Source: Acidobacteriaceae bacterium (GTDB lineage: Bacteria > Acidobacteriota > Terriglobia > Terriglobales > Acidobacteriaceae). From it: a stretch of DNA of 60,500 bases. Below, in pieces: positions 12,649 through 40,646 of this stretch. A program made the translations under genes and the position numbers. The stretch spans positions 1-60,500 of the forward strand of contig DAHUXR010000012.1 in assembly GCA_027307045.1 (NCBI GenBank). The letters run 5' to 3'. Within the stretch, counting starts at the first letter, position 1; every line of letters begins with the position of its first letter. The notes under the pieces are model-generated. The model saw only the letters and a list, made by a program, of their open reading frames with translations, searched no databases and was not told where the DNA came from.

Positions 12649-13506
12649 TTAAACAGTTTTCGACGCTCCGGCAGCAGCCTGTGACTTTGGCCCTCTGCGT
12701 TTCTCCAGAAAACTGGCAAACATGGCGCTGGCGCGTGAGGGAAAAAGGCGCTGGATCCGGTCAATGCGGTACGCGTCCGAGCCGATGAGCACGCGGTTCT
12801 TGTTTCCCAGAATGCCCTTGATGATGACTCGCGAAGCTTCTTCCGGCGGAATGGTTGCTACTTTCTTGAAATACTCTTCCGCTTCCTGGCGGGCCGCCGG
12901 GGTCACGCCGCTTCCGGCGCGTGCGGTGTTTGCGATGGGAGTGGCAATGCCCGCCGGATGCACTGACGTGACTTTGATAGAGCTGGTGGCACGAAGCTCT
13001 TCACGCAGTGATTGACTGAATCCATGGACGGCAAATTTGCTGGCAGCGTAGGCGGTCTGCCCGGGCGGCCCGATCAAGCCAAAAATGCTGGAGAGGTTGA
13101 CGATGTGCGCGTCACTCTCACGCTGAAGCAAGGGCGTAAAGAACTTGCAGCCGTGCACCACGCCCCAGAAGTTGATGCCGATCAGCCAGTGCATGTCCTC
13201 TAAGGAAACTTCAGCCAGCGTGCCCATCAGGGCGACGCCGGCATTATTGATTAATAAGGATGCGCGGCCAAAGTCGCGTTGCACGGCCTGGGCGAAGGCC
13301 TCAACGGCAGGCGCTTTGGAAACGTCCACGCTATAGGTGCGCGCTGTGGCATTGCCCAGCAGCGCGCGGGTTTCTTCCAAAGCAGCAACGTTTACGTCGG
13401 CCAGCGCGAGCTGCGCGCCCATTTTCGCCAGATCCACGGCCAGGGCGCGGCCGATTCCTGAAGCCGCTCCGGTTACAACTGCAACCGCACCTTTAATTTC
13501 ACGCAT
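12649..13506 (-). CDS. SDR family NAD(P)-dependent oxidoreductase
   Basis: From ATG 13506 (MREIKGAVAVVTGAASGIG) the protein has 285 residues; the upstream extension of the frame runs through AT-rich intergenic DNA and is not real. It has TGAASGIGRAL, NNAGVALMG, the catalytic Ser in NLSSIFG and YAASKFA. The C-terminal part (VLIGSDAYRIDRIQRLFPSRASAMFASFLEKRR) is longer than minimal SDRs and resembles the acyl/retinol-type SDRs with a membrane-proximal tail. It is divergent from the selenoprotein candidate, sharing a 136-base AT-rich promoter region. Substrate unknown. Confidence 0.9.
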   Translation of the reverse strand: MREIKGAVAVVTGAASGIGRALAVDLAKMGAQLALADVNVAALEETRALLGNATARTYSVDVSKAPAVEAFAQAVQRDFGRASLLINNAGVALMGTLAEVSLEDMHWLIGINFWGVVHGCKFFTPLLQRESDAHIVNLSSIFGLIGPPGQTAYAASKFAVHGFSQSLREELRATSSIKVTSVHPAGIATPIANTARAGSGVTPAARQEAEEYFKKVATIPPEEASRVIIKGILGNKNRVLIGSDAYRIDRIQRLFPSRASAMFASFLEKRRGPKSQAAAGASKTV

Positions 13507-13642
13507 AGGCAAAAAAGAATAGCAAAATTCGAGATTTAAAATTGAAATTTTAAATTTGAAATTTCGCGTTCGCGTAAACCGCGTGCTTAATATATTCGCT
13601 CGCGGCTTGACATCATGAGCGACTGCCAGGAGAATGTCCGGC
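13507..13642. promoter_or_regulatory. AT-rich divergent promoter region
   Basis: The 136 bases between two divergent genes include an AT-rich inverted repeat (ATTTAAAA-TTGAAA-TTTTAAAT) at about 13532-13553. It probably holds promoters for both genes, but no clear -35/-10 pair could be fixed. Confidence 0.35.
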
Positions 13643-14176
13643 ATGGCTGAATCACTCAGCAGCAAGCTCGCCGGAATAACGCTCCCTGACGCCGACGGCA
13701 AAGCGACGCGGCTCGGCTCCCTGTGGGAAGCGGGACCTGCCGTGGTGGTGTTTCTTCGGCACTACGGTTGAATCTTCTGCGGAGAGCACGTCGCGCAGTT
13801 GCGCGAATTTGAAGCTGAGTTCAAGAAGAAAGGCGCGCACCTGGCCGTGGTTGGACTGGGGGACGCGAGCTATGCCAAGTTCTTCCGCGAGAAGACCGGA
13901 ATCCAGTTCCCTCTTCTGATCGATGACAAGCGCGAAGCCTATAAAACCGTTGGCCTGCGCCACGCTTCCCTGCTCCACCTTCTGCGCAAAGACAACTTGC
14001 AGGCGCGCAAACGGGCCAAAGCGGCGGGACACAAGCAGCATCGGCTGGGAAAAGATCCGCTGCAACTTGGCGGCAGCTTTGTGTTTGCGCCTGGGAACAA
14101 AGATCTCTTCGTCCATGTGAGCGAAACTTTTGGCGACAACGCCGCGCCCGCGGACATGCTGAAAGCGATCGCGTAA
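13643..14176 (+). CDS. SelL-related/AhpC-TSA_2 redox protein, probable selenoprotein (UxxC)
   Basis: Reading from ATG 13643 (AGGAG at 13628-13632, ten bases ahead) through a single in-frame TGA at 13769-13771 gives a full-length 177-residue thioredoxin-fold protein. The TGA falls at residue 43 in FLRHYG-U-IFCGEHVAQLR, exactly where this peroxiredoxin-like family has the first Cys of its CxxC; Cys46 is the second. Downstream parts are typical: VVGLGDASYAKFFREKTGIQFPLLID, and GKDPLQLGGSFVF. A hairpin with a GU-containing loop follows the TGA (separate entry). If selenocysteine is not inserted, only the part from about 13799 would be called and the protein would lack its active site. A nonsense mutation or Cys (TGC/TGT) to TGA error is the alternative. 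selA, selB, selC and selD are not in this window. Confidence 0.8.
13791..13806 (+). promoter_or_regulatory. candidate bacterial SECIS hairpin
   Basis: TCGCGC-AGTT-GCGCGA forms a perfect six-base-pair stem with an AGUU loop. The loop G (13798) is 27 bases after the TGA, inside the 16-37 base range described for bacterial SECIS elements, and it is in the second loop position followed by U, as expected. A competing stem CTGCG/CGCAG at 13777-13798 also exists. Confidence 0.55.
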
Positions 14177-14230
14177 AACATCTACCACGGAGACAACTGA
14201 GGATCGCCCGTCGTGAAAAAATCAGATGAC

Positions 14231-14553
14231 GTGCGGCGAACGGCGTGGAACCCCACCCTTGGCAAAAAGCGCGAAGGATTGGTAGCCCTTAAGAGCAGCG
14301 GGGCCGATTCCTCGGGCCTCACCGGAAGCTGCAACGATGATCATGCGGCGTTGATGTTCGGCTCTCGGAACGGCATGTCGTTGTGTGGGCGTTTGGCTTG
14401 GCGTGAGCAGTTTGGTAGCAGGGGACGATGGGGCATTTCAGATCGTGCTTTGTCCGCGCGTCGCGCCATCCCTAGTCGACATGCTGCCCCGAATCCCGAC
14501 GGCGAGCCTTGGTGAGCTGGAGCGGCGAGGGATCCGCTCCGCTGGTCTGTGGG
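14231..14553 (+). repeat. composite hairpin repeat, copy A (modules 1-2-3)
   Basis: Module 1 (14231-14282) holds CCCACCCTT...GCGCGAAGG hairpin arms; module 2 (14283-14463) starts TAGCCCTTAAGAGCAGCGGG and includes GGCTCTCGGAACGGCATGTC; module 3 (about 14467-14546) is centred on GAATCCCGACGGCGAGCCTT. The same modules recur at 15517, 16275, 16913, 17117, 19040 and 25573. No coding potential is evident; short frames here are spurious. Confidence 0.8.
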
Positions 14554-14582
14554 ATTTCAAGTCTGCTCATGGAGGAGCATTG

Positions 14583-14640
14583 TGCAGCGAGCGGTGTGGA
14601 ATTCCACCCTTCGTAAAAAGCGCGAAGAGTGGGACACGAC
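14583..14640 (+). repeat. composite hairpin repeat, extra module 1
   Basis: A second module-1 copy (GTGTGGAATTCCACCCTTCG...GCGCGAAGAGTGGG) immediately behind copy A, in the same orientation. Its arms CCACCCTTCG and CGAAGAGTGG pair imperfectly. It ends about 60 bases before the 3' end of the minus-strand gene. Confidence 0.7.
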
Positions 14641-14699
14641 GGTATTGTGCCAGAAGAAAGAGCGGGCCGCTGGCCAGCGCTCCCGAACTCTTGTGATTC

Positions 14700-15332
14700 T
14701 CAGTGAGGGTGAAAATCAGAATTGTGCAACTTGAGCGCCTCTTGTCTTTTTCTCTCCATCTGAGCTTCGTAGATCTCCTGTTGAGTTATCGTGATATTCG
14801 TGCGTGCCCGGGCAACGTCTTCCGGGCGCGCGGATGCGCTGTTGTCGACCACCCACTGCCACTCTGAAACCGCCTTTTCGTGCTGACCCATTTTGTCCAG
14901 GCAATAAGCGTGGTTCAGCCAGAATAGCGCTTTCAAATTCCCTGCCCGCACCTGTTGATTTTCTGAGCCCACTCCACCGTCAAAGTCGACCGGCAAGTCC
15001 ATGATGGCTTCATTGAAGAGTTTCGCTGCCTCGCTCCACTTTTCTTTGTTCAGGGCGGAATCAGCCTTAACGCCCACTTCGTGGCTCTTTCGCAATTGCT
15101 TGACGTTGTGGTTGTAGGTCCTTATCTGTGAACCGGTGTCGCCATTTGAGCTTCGGCTTCCGCTATTTGAAGAACCTCCTCCGTTGTTTGAACCGCCTCC
15201 GTTACCGTTTGAAGGACGCTGCGGGGTAGTGGGGTGGGAACAATTAACTCCCAGTTGAGCGCAGGCGCTTTGAGCAGATGCGGGCCCGGACGCAACCAGA
15301 CCTAGAAACACAAGCATTAAACATGTTTTCAT
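14700..15332 (-). CDS. secreted TPR-like protein
   Basis: 210 residues with a signal peptide (MKTCLMLVFLGLVASGPASA). Residues about 38-70 are an Asn/Gly/Ser linker, followed by helical repeats: KADSALNKEKWSEAAKLFNEAIMDLP and AGNLKALFWLNHAYCLDKMGQHEKAVSEWQWVVD, which look like TPR units. A scaffold or envelope role is plausible but unproven. It is flanked on both sides by the composite repeats and is monocistronic. Confidence 0.75.
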   Translation of the reverse strand: MKTCLMLVFLGLVASGPASAQSACAQLGVNCSHPTTPQRPSNGNGGGSNNGGGSSNSGSRSSNGDTGSQIRTYNHNVKQLRKSHEVGVKADSALNKEKWSEAAKLFNEAIMDLPVDFDGGVGSENQQVRAGNLKALFWLNHAYCLDKMGQHEKAVSEWQWVVDNSASARPEDVARARTNITITQQEIYEAQMERKRQEALKLHNSDFHPH

Positions 15333-15516
15333 AGAGTTTTTCTTCTTCTAGAAGGTGTCTCACAAATATTGAGAATGGCTCTTGCGAACCCCGAGGGGAT
15401 AGGGCGGTCATCCGACTGATTGAGATAGCTTCTGCTGGATGGTGCCAAAAACCCCTCCAGCGTTTCACTGAAAACGCCGACTTTGCAAATAAAGAGTGGG
15501 CGGGACTGTATCTGCA

Positions 15517-15890
15517 TGCGGCGAACGGCGTGGAATCCCACCCTTTGCAAAAGCGGCGAAGAGTGGGGTAGCCCTTGAAAGCAGCGGGGCCGATTCCTCG
15601 GGCCTCACGGAAGCTGCGCCGGAGATTCAGACTGCATGGATGTTCGGCGCTCGGAACGGCATGTCGTAGTGGGGACATCGTGTTCGGCCTGAGCAGTTTG
15701 TTAGAGGGACACGATGCGGAGATGCAAGATCGTTTCTAGTGCGACGTGCGATCTAGGACGAAATCTACATCACGCTTGACGCGTTGCCCTGAATCGAACA
15801 CCTATCCCTCTCGACCCGCCATCCCGAATCCCGACGGCGAGCCTTGGTGAGCCGCAGCGGTGAGGGAGCGGCTCCGCTGGTCTTTGGGGA
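15517..15890 (+). repeat. composite hairpin repeat, copy B (modules 1-2-3)
   Basis: Complete copy: module 1 at 15517-15570 (GGAATCCCACCCTTTGC...GGCGAAGAGTGGGG), module 2 from 15571 (TAGCCCTTGAAAGCAGCGGG), and module 3 near 15820-15880 (CATCCCGAATCCCGACGGCG). It carries about 75 extra bases between modules 2 and 3 relative to copy A, shared with copy C. It abuts the stop of the GIY-YIG gene. Confidence 0.8.
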
Positions 15891-15900
15891 TTATCAAAGC

Positions 15901-16254
15901 TTAGGATTTCGGAGTTTTCCGCTTGAGCCTGATAAGAGCATCGGGTTCAAGCTTCCAGCCTGGATCTTCTTCCCACTCGCGGCTCAAGTCAGCCCAGTCA
16001 GGGTTTTGCGCGAGAATCAGCTTCAGCTTCTTTGCCCGACGCCAGCCTTTAATCTCGACTTCCCGCATCTTTGCATGGATGATGCTTTCAAAAGGTTGAC
16101 ACCAGACAAGCATGTAGAATTCGTATCGCGCAGTGAAGCTATCAGGATAGAGCTTGTTTTTGTGCTGGAATACGCGATAGGGCAGGTTGCTGGTGAACCC
16201 CACATATAGCCGTCGCGACTTGTTTGACATGATGTAAACCCAGTAGGTCTTCAT
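15901..16254 (-). CDS. GIY-YIG nuclease family protein
   Basis: 117 residues, the full length of stand-alone single-domain GIY-YIG proteins. The opening YWVYIMSNKSRRLYVGFTSNLPYRVFQHK contains the paired VYI...LYVG strands (GIY/YIG variants) with the conserved Arg in the following helix (YRVFQH); a downstream Glu (MREVEIKGW) is the usual metal ligand. This class is of uncertain function; some are mobile-element remnants, others repair-like. It is wedged between composite repeat copies B and C with almost no spacing, which suggests association with the repeat family (inference). Confidence 0.88.
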   Translation of the reverse strand: MKTYWVYIMSNKSRRLYVGFTSNLPYRVFQHKNKLYPDSFTARYEFYMLVWCQPFESIIHAKMREVEIKGWRRAKKLKLILAQNPDWADLSREWEEDPGWKLEPDALIRLKRKTPKS

Positions 16255-16274
16255 GAGGTCGCTCCAGATTGTAC

Positions 16275-16590
16275 ACGCCTTGAGAGCAGCGGAGCAGATT
16301 CCTCGGGCCTCACGGAAGCTGTAATGGTGATTATGCAGCGTTGATGTTCGGCTCTCGGAACGGCATGTCGTTGTGTGGGTGTTGTGTTCGGCGTGGGCAG
16401 TTTGTCAGCGCGAGACGATGTGGATATGCAAGATCGTTGTCAGCGAACGTATCCCGGACGAATCCTGCATCGCGCTCGATGTACCGTCCCTGGTGGAAGC
16501 CTTATCCCCCTCGACAGGCCATCCCGAATCCCGATGGCGAGCCTTGGTGAGCCGAGCGGTGAGGGAGCGGCTCCGCTGCTTTTTAGGATG
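16275..16590 (+). repeat. composite hairpin repeat, copy C (modules 2-3)
   Basis: Lacks module 1. Module 2 begins GAGAGCAGCGGAGCAGATTC and keeps GGCTCTCGGAACGGCATGTC; the extended linker of copy B (CAAGATCGTT...GACGAAT) is present, followed by module 3 (CCCGAATCCCGATGGCGAGC). Confidence 0.75.
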
Positions 16591-16617
16591 TCGAAGCTGA
16601 TCGAAGGACAAGCATCG

Positions 16618-16730
16618 TGCGACGAACGGTGTGGAACCCACCCTTCGCAAAAGCGGTGAAGGATGGGGCACCCACGGCTTCGTGAGTTAAAGAAAAGGCG
16701 GGAAAGGTGGGCCACCCACCGCATTCCAGC
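16618..16730 (+). repeat. composite hairpin repeat, module 1 with GGGCACCC tail
   Basis: GTGTGGAACCCACCCTTCGC...GGTGAAGGATGGGGCACCCACGG followed by GTGAGTTAAAGAAAAGGCGGG and GGGCCACCC. The same tail is found at 16963-17020. Confidence 0.65.
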
Positions 16731-16802
16731 AATCTATTCGCGCTCCGCTGCGCTGCGCGCCAGCCTACGGCGTAAGGAAGAGTTATCTTTTGCATCTTTT
16801 AT

Positions 16803-16863
16803 GGCACGACTACGCAGCCCTTGCTCCCTTAGGTCGCGCCGGGCTGAACGCTAAAGTCGTGCC
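16803..16863. repeat. long inverted repeat (GGCACGACT hairpin)
   Basis: Outer arms GGCACGACT (16803-16811) and AGTCGTGCC (16855-16863) are perfectly complementary, and inner arms AGCCC (16816-16820) and GGGCT (16841-16845) nest inside. It looks like another dispersed intergenic hairpin element. Confidence 0.6.
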
Positions 16864-16912
16864 CTGACACTTGTTTCGACGTGGATGCGTGGCAAGCAAA
16901 GAAATCAGAGAT

Positions 16913-17022
16913 GGGTGCGGCAGACGGTGTGGAATCCCACCCTTCGCAAAAAGCGCGAAGAGTGGGGCACCCACGGTTTCGTGAGTTGAAGAGAAAGCAG
17001 GAATGTGTGGGCCACCCGTCTT
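16913..17022 (+). repeat. composite hairpin repeat, copy D module 1
   Basis: GGTGTGGAATCCCACCCTTC and GCGCGAAGAGTGGGGCACCC form the best-preserved module-1 hairpin (CCCAC-CTTCGC against GCGAAG-GTGGG). The GTGAGTTGAAGAGAAAGCAGG tail matches the copy at 16618. Confidence 0.7.
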
Positions 17023-17116
17023 TGTAGGACTTTGAAAAATGCCGCTTAATCGGCGAGGAGTTTCAAGATTTGACGCGATTTGTTTTCGACCCGGCAGGTA
17101 TGCGCCCGCTCGCATT

Positions 17117-17228
17117 GGTAGCCCTTGAGCCCAGCGGGGCCGATTCCTCGGGCCTCACAGAAGCTATGTCGAGTTTTTATGCAGCGTTGATGTTCGGCTC
17201 TCGGAACAGCAGGTCGTTGTGGGGGCGT
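17117..17228 (+). repeat. composite hairpin repeat, copy D module 2
   Basis: TAGCCCTTGAGCCCAGCGGG, TCCTCGGGCCTCA and TGATGTTCGGCTCTCGGAAC match module 2 of copies A-C. Module 3 is missing. No gene is visible between 16255 and 17840; this span holds repeats and the folded leader at 17396. Confidence 0.7.
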
Positions 17229-36765: not shown

Positions 36766-39600
36766 ATGCGGCAGCCGCTTGAACTTAAGAAGACCCTGAA
36801 TCTTCCTAAAACCGACTTCTCCATGAAGGCAAACCTGCCTCAGAACGAGCCCAAATGGCTTGAGCGCTGGGAGAAGATGGATATTTATCGGAAGATCCGC
36901 GAGTCTCGCCGCGGCGCGCCTAGTTATGTGCTGCATGACGGCCCTCCGTATGCAAACGGAGCTATCCATGAAGGCCATGCTCTCAACAAGTGCCTGAAAG
37001 ATTTTGTGGTGAAGTCAAAAACCATGGCAGGGTTCGATTCGCCCTACGTTCCCGGCTGGGACTGCCACGGTTTACCCATCGAAATCAAGATTGATGAGAA
37101 GCTTGGCCGCAAGAAGCTGGAGATACCGGCCATCGCCGTCCGCCGAGAGTGCCGTGCTTACGCGGAAAAGTTTCTTAATATCCAGCGTGACCAGTTCAAG
37201 CGCCTTGGTATTCTTGGCCGCTGGGAGCAACCGTATTCCACGATGTCAAAGCAGTACGAATCGGTCATCGTTCGCCAGTTGTTTGACTTCATGGAAAACG
37301 GCGCTGTCTATAAAGGCCTGCGCCCGGTCTACTGGTGCATCCATGACAAGACCGCGCTGGCGGAAGCCGAGATCGAATACTCCAACCACACCAGCCCCAG
37401 CGTATGGGTGAAGTACCAGCTCACCAGCGATCCGGCAAAGATCGATCCCGCGTTGGCCGGGAAAAAAGTTTCAACCATTATCTGGACGACGACTCCATGG
37501 ACGCTTCCCGCTTCCATGGCCGTAGCATTCCATCCCGATCTGGAATACGTAGCGCTTGAACACAATGGCGAGCTTTACATCGTCGCAGATGCGCTGGCCA
37601 AAGCGACAATCGAAGCCTGCAAGTTCACGGGTGCGTCGATCGTTGCTCGCTTCCCAGGCCAGAAACTCGAGTACGCAACATTTGCGCATCCGTTTCTTGA
37701 TCGCTCGATTCTTGGCGTGCTGGCCAACTACGTCACCACGGAGCAAGGAACCGGAGCTGTGCACACCGCTCCATCGCACGGTGCGGACGATTTCTATACC
37801 GGCACAAAGTACAAGCTTGATCAGCGGACTAACGTTGATGAAGCTGGCCATCTGCAAAACGGCTTGCCTGAGTATGAAGGTAAAACGGTTTTTCAGGCCA
37901 ACCAGCCGATCATCGAATTGCTGAAGTCGCGCGGCGTTTTGATGGCGGAAGCCAAAATCGAGCACTCGTATCCTCACTGCTGGCGGTGCCACAATCCCGT
38001 GATCTTCCGCGCCACCGAGCAGTGGTTCATCTCCATGGAAGCGCCCGTTGACGGCACCACGTTGCGCCTGCGCTCGCTCGACGAGATCAAGAAAGTAAAG
38101 TGGATTCCGGCCTGGGGTGAAGAGCGTATCAGCAACATGATTGCTACGCGTCCTGACTGGTGCATCTCTCGCCAGCGCGTATGGGGTGTTCCCATTGCTG
38201 TATTTTTCTGCGAAGGCTGCGGCAAGCTGCTGGAATCAAAAGAATCGCACGGCGCGGTCGTCGATCTTTTCGCGCGTGAAGGCGCGGACTCCTGGTACAC
38301 AAAAGATGCCAAAGACATTCTGCCTTCCGGGACCAAATGCTCCGGCTGTAGTGGCTCTGCTTTCCGCAAAGAGACTGACATTATCGACGTATGGTTTGAA
38401 TCAGGCTGCAGCCACGCCGCCGTGCTGGGCCATGAGCCAGACCTGCCCTGGCCCGCCGACCTCTATCTTGAAGGCGGTGACCAGTATCGCGGATGGTTTC
38501 ACTCTTCCCTGCTCGTCGCCGTGGGCACGCGCGGTCACGCGCCCTACCGCGCTGTGGCCACCAATGGCTGGACACTCGATCCCCAGGGCAAAGCCACTTC
38601 CAAGTCACTCGGCAACGGAATCGATCCTATAGAGATCGCCAAGAAGCTCGGCGGCGAGATCATCCGGCTATGGGTCGCGTCGGTCGACTTTCAGGAAGAT
38701 GTTACGGTTTCAGAAGACCTGATGAAGCAGGTTGCTGAAAATTACCGCAAGGTCCGCAATACCTTCAAATATCTGCTCAGCAATCTGCCAGACTTTGATC
38801 CCGCCAAACATGCAATCAAGTTTGATGACCTTCAGGCTCTCGACAAATACTGGCTGCTGCGCACTGCCGACCTGGCAGATCGCGTGCGCGGCTACTACGA
38901 CAGGTTTGAGTTCCACCGCATCTATCATCTGGTCAACGAATTTGCCGTGGATCTGAGCACTGGCTTTATAGACGTGGTCAAAGACCGCCTGTACACTTCC
39001 GCGCCAAACTCGCACGGGCGACGATCAGCCCAGACGGCGACCTGGCGCATTGCCGAAGCCCTGGTGCGTCTGGTGGCTCCTATCATGAGCTTTACCGCCG
39101 ACGAAATATGGGGGTTCCTGCCCAACGTTTCCGGGCGACTGGAAAGCGTGCATCTGGCACACTTCCCCAAAGCTGAAGAGATCACCGGAACCGTAAGCGA
39201 TGCCGCCAGCGGTCAGGCTGTCTGGAAAGACTTTGAGACATTAATGAAGGTCCGCGACACTGCTCTGAAAGCCCTGGAAGGCGCGCGCCAGGAAAAGACC
39301 ATCGGCAGCGCCCTGGAGGCGGTAGTCACCATCTCTGCACCGAGCGAGCTTGTCCCGCTGTTGCAGCGCTATCGCAATGACCTGCGTTTTCTGCTGATTG
39401 TCTCTGGAGTTGAAGTAAAAACCAACTCAGGCGGGAACGGGAGCACGCCTTTGCACGTATCCATACAGAAAGCTCCGGGACAAAAGTGTGATCGCTGCTG
39501 GAATTATTCTACTCATGTCGGCGAAAATGAGCGGTACCCTACGGTATGCGAACGCTGCACTGCGGCCTTGGCGGAGATTGAAAAAGAATTGGTAAGTTGA
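36766..39600 (+). CDS. ileS: isoleucine--tRNA ligase
   Basis: 944 residues from ATG 36766 with CGGAG five bases upstream (GTG 36760 possible). Class I synthetase: HIGH-like HEGH in [18 protein letters not shown], the large CP1 editing domain (about 200-400, [32 protein letters not shown]), and the KMSKS-loop as KATSKSLGN. The C-terminal zinc ribbon is intact ([12 protein letters not shown]...CERC). It charges tRNA-Ile and is followed by two lspA genes, a common ileS-lspA order. The spacing between ileS stop and lspA (39 bases) indicates one operon. Confidence 0.97.
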
Positions 39601-39638
39601 CGGGGTGCCCTGAATCGAGGGGCAGCCATGAGCGTCTA

Positions 39639-40151
39639 ATGGAAACAATGCGGAAGTACCACATCATGATTGCCGCTCTCATCGTCCTCTGTGACAGGAT
39701 GACGAAGTGGCTGGTGTCACAGAAAATCACCCTGCATGACAGCATTGACATTGTCCCCGGCGTCTTCCGTCTGACGCACGTTCAGAACCAGGGCGCGGCC
39801 TTCGGCCTCTTCGCCGAATCGCCCTCTGAATGGCGTGTGGCCATGCTCATCCTGTTTTCTCTGGCGGCTCTGGCCGTGGTCTCTGCCCTGCTTTGGAAGA
39901 ATGGCAATGCGTTAAATACCACCGCTATTGCGCTTTCGCTGGTCTTCGGCGGAGCGCTGGGCAATCTGTGGGACCGAGTGACAAGCGGTCGCGTAATCGA
40001 CTTTATTGATTTTTATCTCGGCTCGCATCACTGGCCGGCCTTCAATATTGCCGATAGCGCCATCGTGGTTGGCGCTCTCCTGCTGTTGAGTGAAATCTTT
40101 CTCACCCCGCAAGAGGAAAAAGCCAGGGAAGAGAAAGTGGCTACCCAGTAA
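39639..40151 (+). CDS. lspA: signal peptidase II, copy 1
   Basis: 170 residues from ATG 39639 (METMRKYHIM). Four membrane helices; catalytic Asp regions NLWDRVTSGRVIDFIDFYL and FNIADSAIVVG are intact, as are NQGAAFGLF and the N-terminal CDRMTKWLV. It cleaves lipoprotein signal peptides at the lipobox Cys after diacylglyceryl transfer. The next gene is a paralog nine bases downstream. The window encodes at least one lipoprotein (46431-46787) that needs such an enzyme. Confidence 0.94.
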   Translation: METMRKYHIMIAALIVLCDRMTKWLVSQKITLHDSIDIVPGVFRLTHVQNQGAAFGLFAESPSEWRVAMLILFSLAALAVVSALLWKNGNALNTTAIALSLVFGGALGNLWDRVTSGRVIDFIDFYLGSHHWPAFNIADSAIVVGALLLLSEIFLTPQEEKAREEKVATQ

Positions 40152-40160
40152 GACAACGTC

Positions 40161-40646
40161 ATGCCCAAGCGCCCTCTGCTGATCGCACTTGCCGTGCTGC
40201 TGCTGGATCGGATTACCAAGTGGGCCGTTGCGCAGACCATTCCTCTGGAAGACGTCATCAATATCATCCCTGGCTTCTTTCGTCTGACTCACCTTGAAAA
40301 TACCGGCGCCGCCTTCAGCCTCTTTGCCGACTCTCCGTCGCCTTTTCGCACAATTTTGCTAATCGCTTTCTCGGTGGCAGCTCTGGCGGTAATTTCTTTT
40401 CTGCTCTGGAAAGACCGCAGCGTTTTTCACGCCGGCACTCTGGCGCTCTCTCTGATTCTGGGCGGGGCCATCGGCAATCTTTGGGACCGAGTGTCAGACG
40501 GTAAGGTCACTGACTTTCTGGATTTCTACATCGGCGTTCACCACTGGCCGCCTTTCAATGTGGCCGATAGCGCCATTGTTGTAGGTGCGCTGCTGCTTTT
40601 CATGCGCATGCTGCGTAAGGATCATCACGCTCAAGCTGCAGCTTAA
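40161..40646 (+). CDS. lspA: signal peptidase II, copy 2
   Basis: 161 residues, clearly homologous to copy 1 along its whole length (VINIIPGFFRLTHLENTGAAFSLFADSPSPFRTILL; GNLWDRVSDGKVTDFLDFYIGVHHWPPFNVADSAIVVGALLL). Both catalytic Asp motifs are present, so it should be active. Roughly half or more of aligned residues match copy 1, so the duplication is not recent. Two tandem lspA behind ileS is unusual; division of labour between different lipoprotein sets is possible (inference). Confidence 0.94.
   Translation: MPKRPLLIALAVLLLDRITKWAVAQTIPLEDVINIIPGFFRLTHLENTGAAFSLFADSPSPFRTILLIAFSVAALAVISFLLWKDRSVFHAGTLALSLILGGAIGNLWDRVSDGKVTDFLDFYIGVHHWPPFNVADSAIVVGALLLFMRMLRKDHHAQAAA

Follow-up and report, generated by a model that had tools for sequence, protein, structure and literature searches.

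We report that a gene interrupted by an in-frame TGA codon in an acidobacterial genome almost certainly encodes an intact redox protein, one in which comparative evidence from DNA and translated protein predicts selenocysteine (Sec, U) at residue 43. The gene lies in a 60,500-nucleotide stretch of contig DAHUXR010000012.1 (Acidobacteriaceae bacterium, assembly GCA_027307045.1, positions 1 to 60,500), which we refer to as the window. Taken singly, its open frame and the hairpin that follows the TGA carry little weight. Long one-TGA frames are frequent in the window, whose six reading frames contain 54 stop-TGA-stop stretches longer than 170 codons; of its 2096 TGAs, 162 (7.7%) pass a simple hairpin test at six or more pairs and 445 at five pairs. 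Because both features are common by chance, frame and hairpin alone would not prove a selenoprotein; what goes beyond chance is that the TGA, the downstream frame and the pairing of the stem are all conserved in relatives.

Results

Gene structure and reading signals

Translation of frame 13643-14176 on the forward strand gave exactly one TGA in 177 residues, in the context FLRHYG-U-IFC, with U as the first residue of a CxxC motif. This agrees with an earlier note on this DNA, which had placed a single in-frame TGA at the first cysteine of that motif and an AGGAG site ahead of the ATG; the AGGAG site is also present (Table 1). A second in-frame ATG occurs at 13634, one base past the AGGAG, and the initial methionine of three relatives (L022, L023 and L024) aligns to residue 1 of the window protein at ATG 13643. 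We also observed a sigma-70-like match (TTGACA, 17, GAGAAT) at 13607-13635, ending 8 bases before that ATG (a single match, where shuffles predict 0.2); if genuine, it would produce a nearly leaderless message, which is at odds with the AGGAG site.

Under translation table 11, the frames of at least 80 residues at this locus are a 125-residue frame that starts at TTG (13799-14176) and, on the antisense strand, one of 178 residues (13652-14188) and one of 80 residues (13939-14181). The expectation that automated callers would report either the truncated 125-residue frame or the long antisense frame was therefore right in substance, the 80-residue antisense frame being an addition to it.

Table 1. 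Features of the predicted selenoprotein gene in the window
Feature	Position	Strand	Description	Evidence
Predicted selenoprotein gene	13643..14176	+	177 residues + TAA stop; UxxC redox protein, SelL-related/AhpC-TSA_2 kind	
TGA, predicted to be read as selenocysteine	13769..13771	+	residue 43, first position of UIFC	
TGC, Cys46	13778..13780	+	sole cysteine of the protein; invariant in 19 orthologue rows	
AGGAG ribosome-binding-like site	13628..13632	+	10 bases before ATG 13643	sequence
Bacterial SECIS hairpin	13791-13806 (loop 13797-13800); counted stem 13790..13807	+	TCGCGC-AGUU-GCGCGA	covariation, hairpin tests

The TGA and the downstream frame are conserved in relatives

We looked for orthologues in a sample of 200 genomes from the family (Acidobacteriaceae). 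Nineteen were full-length, including the window gene, to which the other 18 are 51-95% identical, and all 19 have a single TGA, which occupies the same codon throughout. One further orthologue, the twentieth (G170), is split across two contigs, with the TGA in its N-terminal piece. When 298 genomes of the order were searched, with the best 11 or fewer candidates scored in each, one more (L093) was added, from another family and also with the TGA. Differences per codon position were 0.258/0.194/0.512 after the TGA and 0.217/0.178/0.602 before it. The frame after the TGA evolves as a coding frame under purifying selection, and the decay in relatives that had been raised as a possible outcome is not seen, divergence being dominated by third positions.

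These data bear on two other readings of the locus. The first is that an ordinary Cys redox gene has suffered a nonsense mutation or a sequencing error and is now a pseudogene or an artefact. In a draft contig, a lone TGA considered without relatives could indeed be an error, and one-TGA frames are common in the window (the 54 long stretches above); however, the same codon recurs in 19/19 full-length orthologues from separate genomes, the sequence beyond it has diverged mostly at third positions (0.258/0.194/0.512), and the hairpin described below is conserved, all of which make such an origin extremely unlikely. The second reading takes the antisense frame 13652-14188 as the real gene. Its 178 codons are open, as is the same antisense frame in L030, L031 and L034, but 15 of the 19 orthologues have a stop well inside it. 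Moreover, the protein-family models match the sense strand and it is the third sense position that diverges most, which leaves a coding role for the antisense frame a practically negligible probability.

A covarying hairpin follows the TGA

The earlier note had described a six-base-pair hairpin with an AGUU loop behind the TGA, and we recovered it: the hairpin begins 19 bases after the TGA and its loop after 25, and the 27th base is the loop G at 13798. The outermost pair that we counted (13790/13807) is absent in the window itself and is formed in some relatives only. Published rules for bacterial SECIS elements specify a loop of 3-9 nt, a stem of 4-16 bp, a G at loop position one or two, a spacing of 16-37 nt and a minimum free energy of -7.5 kcal/mol or lower (PMC13188914). 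With a 4-base AGUU loop, a 6-bp stem, a spacing of 25 and -9.4 kcal/mol for the 16-base hairpin, the window element falls inside all of these ranges. A fold of the 60 bases downstream of the TGA, a check suggested beforehand, did reveal the hairpin; as to stability, the segment equals its shuffles (z 0.11), a neutral outcome. Since whole-segment stability was uninformative, we turned to synonymous sites and to covariation.

With codons counted downstream from the TGA, synonymous conservation in the 19 orthologues peaks in the six-codon intervals +7 to +12 and +8 to +13, at 0.87-0.88 observed versus 0.52-0.53 expected. At the hairpin, leucine is encoded by TTG in 19/19 orthologues; elsewhere in the aligned part, TTG accounts for 27 of 278 leucine codons.

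Covariation was measured on 47 gapless rows (set A3), namely the window gene and 46 Sec loci of the phylum, with each gene represented by a single locus and Cys loci excluded. The stem was defined as seven pairs (columns 22-28 with 33-39), and 500 shuffles together with slid versions of the stem served as controls. Pairing was present in 79.0% of 329 cells (68.5% in shuffles), two-sided changes in 29 cells (8.4 in shuffles), and the covariation score was 0.309 (0.132 in shuffles); on each of these three measures 0/500 shuffles were as high. Two-sided change was found in all 7 of the 7 stem pairs, a result also attained by 8/500 shuffles and by the version slid by +3, and on the other three measures all slid versions were lower (at most 23 two-sided cells). 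RNAalifold applied to the 47 rows proposed only three of the seven stem pairs, which we counted against the element; given so short a structure, the hairpin was named and its pairs were counted. Examples of stem variants are TTGCTGC/GCAGCAA in L076, GCGGCGC/GCGCCGC in L073 and GCGGTGC-AGGT-GCATCGC in L064.

The simple hairpin test was passed by 42 of the 46 Sec relatives at five pairs and by 30 at six. Four loci (L033, L049, L059 and L066) failed it at five pairs, three (L036, L067 and L079) passed via a hairpin elsewhere only, and in seven (L037, L038, L068, L069, L070, L072 and L074) the loop measures 5-8 bases. Among the 11 Cys relatives, three passed at five pairs, close to the background rate, and in none did the loop columns read AGTT or AGGT. 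The case for a SECIS element is thus based on the covariation and synonymous-site tests, and the hairpin also accords with the published rules.

The host genome carries a complete Sec system

Selenocysteine insertion would call for selA, selB, selC and selD, which the earlier note had proposed to look for, and all four are present in the host genome (G000; 4.99 Mb, 356 contigs, 93.68% complete, 2.33% contamination) at scores above their curated cut-offs: selC at 73.9 bits (cut-off 47; ARAGORN also calls a tRNA-Sec with anticodon tca), selA at 541.6 bits (267.9), selB at 367.3 bits with its neighbours (242.25) and selD at 364.8 bits (125). In 14 control genomes, matches over the cut-off were obtained in 5 for selC, 2 for selB, 1 for selA and 2 for selD; below the cut-off, selC, selB and selD matched in 14/14 and selA in 4. 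Because sub-cut-off matches also arise in controls, only those over the cut-off were counted. None of the sel genes shares a contig with the window; they are found on short contigs (6.6 to 22 kb) elsewhere in the draft assembly, and we counted this, together with the contamination of that assembly, against the assignment. Across the 200 genomes of the family, selA was found in 20/20 of those with the gene versus 116/200 overall (hypergeometric P = 8.7e-6, relatedness uncorrected). One genome of the same genus (G198) has two over-cut-off selA genes, on contigs C53 and C176, reflecting either duplication or contamination.

Further genes of the host contain in-frame TGAs. The selD gene has one in the context AAG-U-ASK (L018:269-1195, contig C69 of its own genome), and its product, selenophosphate synthetase, is probably itself a selenoprotein. 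TGAs are also found inside three of eight molybdopterin-oxidoreductase match rows, L098 (C311), L102 (C355) and L103 (C233), in the contexts RT-U-HAPS, RV-U-HGPT and RI-U-HSST. The three frames probably encode Sec formate dehydrogenases, to judge from these contexts; those of L102 and L103 carry additional TGAs away from the U-H sites. With the sel genes and these further TGA genes together, the Sec system looks to be in use.

It could also be supposed that UGA is read as cysteine or tryptophan, by a variant code or a suppressor tRNA, and the Cys found at the TGA position in relatives of the wider family is compatible with such decoding. Nevertheless, TGA is the stop codon of 10 of the 27 long window ORFs checked, the genome possesses complete Sec machinery, and a covarying SECIS-like hairpin would serve no role if UGA were decoded in this manner. 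We therefore regard a variant code as very improbable, and selenocysteine remains our reading of the codon.

Sec forms outnumber Cys forms in the sampled Acidobacteriota

To place the gene in its phylum, we searched a sample of 396 genomes, scoring the best eight or fewer candidates in each, a depth at which some Cys relatives may be missed. At E <= 1e-14 the orthologue profile gave at least 29 matches, 26 with a TGA (three of them with two, UxxU) and 3 without (L062, L080 and L081). At E <= 1e-18 the NF040769 search gave at least 66 matches, 46 with a TGA (four of them with two) and 20 without, the position of the TGA having been checked for individually read loci only. Homologues with Cys at residue 43, which had been suggested as a point of comparison, do exist (L044, L045, L047, L062, L080 and L081).

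A midpoint-rooted tree was built from 51 rows, 6 of them Cys; it omits L071, L096 and five distant Cys loci (L042, L043, L046, L048 and L050) with the motif RG(R/E)WCP(F/Y)C. The window gene falls in a clade of 26 rows, all Sec (100/99), within a surrounding group of 44 that includes a single Cys row (100/100), and 5 of the 7 rows on the other side are Cys. As the root was placed at the midpoint, the tree gives no direction of Sec/Cys change.

Two sets of loci show other arrangements. In L073, L074 and L075 there are two TGAs, giving ULPU or ULLU, the UxxU pattern of SelL, and such relatives have one SECIS-like hairpin after both TGAs (in L074, 5 pairs and an 8-base loop). L049 (GUPYC) and L079 (GUTFC) are Sec forms whose neighbours in the tree are mostly Cys rows, and both lack an AGUU hairpin at the usual position; they possibly represent separate Cys-to-Sec changes or use another SECIS.

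We put forward, tentatively, that Acidobacteriota hold a Sec-native branch of the family, in which Sec would be ancestral and hard to replace, one SECIS design (mostly AGUU, 25 bases after UGA) would have been kept phylum-wide, and switches between UxxC and UxxU would have occurred. This branch could be a bacterial counterpart of eukaryotic SelL/PRXL2. A literature search, extending to parts of the sources, found no description of an Acidobacteriota branch that is nearly all Sec; PMC13188914 and PMC9312934 do not contain the string 'Acidobacteri' at all, and none of the papers searched names NF040769. In the portions consulted, one source lists an Acidobacteriota genome with three known selenoprotein genes (PMC12013277) and another attributes to Acidobacteria four selenoproteins of three families (PMC1794560).

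Genomic neighbourhood

When the flanks (mostly 1.5 kb) of 25 relatives and a piece of the window were compared, no neighbour was common to more than four loci and hence no conserved operon partner was found in them. The strongest neighbour group was a divergent short-chain dehydrogenase in L022, L023, L025 and L029 (identified by Pfam for L022 only). The window also has a short-chain dehydrogenase (12649-13509, PF00106), which was left out of this comparison because its stop-to-stop frame overlaps the selenoprotein gene.

Other features of the window were noted. After the selenoprotein gene, region 14231-17224 holds seven diverged direct-repeat families of 55-111 nt in 2-4 copies, with 68-88% identity to the reference copy, and a small GIY-YIG frame (15901-16254) on the other strand. 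At 39597-40646, two tandem signal peptidase II (Peptidase_A8) genes follow an isoleucyl-tRNA-synthetase-like gene.

Protein family and fold

With U read as C, the protein matched Pfam AhpC-TSA_2 (PF13911) at 64.7 bits (gathering 27) over residues 52-161 and AhpC-TSA (pfam00578) at 46.3 bits (cut-off 26) over residues 10-108. NCBIfam NF040769 (SelL_rel_redox) matched the whole length at 126 bits against a cut-off of 120; when the DNA was searched in all six frames and the stop was read through, it scored 116.9 bits, just under that cut-off. NF040769 was also matched at E <= 0.001 by all 43 members of alignment A4, which omits the Sec loci L049, L071, L078, L079 and L096 and the Cys loci L042-L048, L050, L080 and L081.

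A structure model built from a 43-row alignment with U as Cys (pLDDT 95.6, pTM 0.91) matched thioredoxin folds. By both sequence and fold, the closest solved structures were those of human prostamide/prostaglandin F (PGF) synthase, 9usa and 9us9 (9usa: E 4.3e-12, TM 0.81/0.88, 26% identity over the Foldseek alignment), the product of the gene PRXL2B. ResA and Bcp/PrxQ types came next, and U43 aligned to the first Cys of the CxxC in PGF synthase (C44) and in ResA. The label 'SelL/PRXL2-like' given to the protein in the earlier note was well chosen, both by the SelL_rel_redox match and by the nearest structure; one difference is that SelL proper has two Sec, the protein here one Sec and one Cys.

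Discussion

In the mechanism that we propose, SelB would bind the SECIS hairpin just past the UGA and deliver Sec-tRNA, and the ribosome would insert Sec at residue 43 to yield the full 19-kDa protein, a predicted single-domain thioredoxin-fold selenoenzyme. The Sec43 selenolate would attack a peroxide or disulfide substrate; Cys46, likely the resolving residue, would then form an intramolecular Se-S bond with the oxidised Sec43, and reduction by a donor of the thioredoxin or glutathione type would restore the enzyme. A Sec43/Cys46 catalytic cycle of this kind seems probable. Judged from family homology, the role is likely that of a peroxidase or a thiol-disulfide oxidoreductase.

UGA decoding generally competes with termination, and on that ground the codon might instead be a selenium-controlled switch, with a 42-residue product that functions at low selenium and a secondary long form. 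Yet the first 42 residues would form just the start of the thioredoxin fold in the structure model, and conservation extends across the whole protein, so that a functional short product is very unlikely and the full-length selenoprotein is the reading that we retain.

At this locus, gene calling with table 11 misses the enzyme and yields either a shortened frame or a spurious gene on the antisense strand. The analysis adds a selenoprotein with good support to one lineage of Acidobacteriota, together with a set from across the phylum where the Sec form is commoner than the Cys form; its use lies in annotation and in the question of why Sec is kept, and it introduces no new mechanism.

Comparison with known systems, for which the published sources were consulted in part, places the protein among types already described. 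PGF synthase (9us9, 9usa) has its CxxC in the same place, with Cys44/Cys47 there and Sec/Cys here; a prostaglandin substrate would not be expected in this bacterium. Peroxiredoxins proper have a peroxidatic TxxC (TxxU in the Sec form; PMC2398784, PMC13188914, PMC9312934), in contrast to the UIFC found here, whose U aligns with the first Cys of the ResA CxxC. SelL has been described as a Prx-like protein (PMC2398784), and SelL proper as having two Sec residues (PMC3473315); kinship with it is expressed in the family name of NF040769, while UIFC has a single Sec. The tables of selenoprotein catalogues, on which this comparison is based, list an AhpC-TSA_2 selenoprotein with UxxS (PMC9312934, PMC13188914), which differs from the UxxC here. 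The same tables include UxxC and UxxU forms of Prx-like thiol:disulfide oxidoreductases (PMC13188914, PMC9312934), and UxxC Prx-like families were already reported as abundant in ocean metagenomes (PMC2398784). With these catalogued oxidoreductases the protein has in common the UxxC motif, an AhpC-TSA domain and UxxU sister forms; their domain is given as pfam00578, whereas here PF13911 scores higher (64.7 vs 46.3) and its best stretch starts past U. The gene belongs to a known kind, the UxxC/UxxU Prx-like, SelL-related redox proteins.
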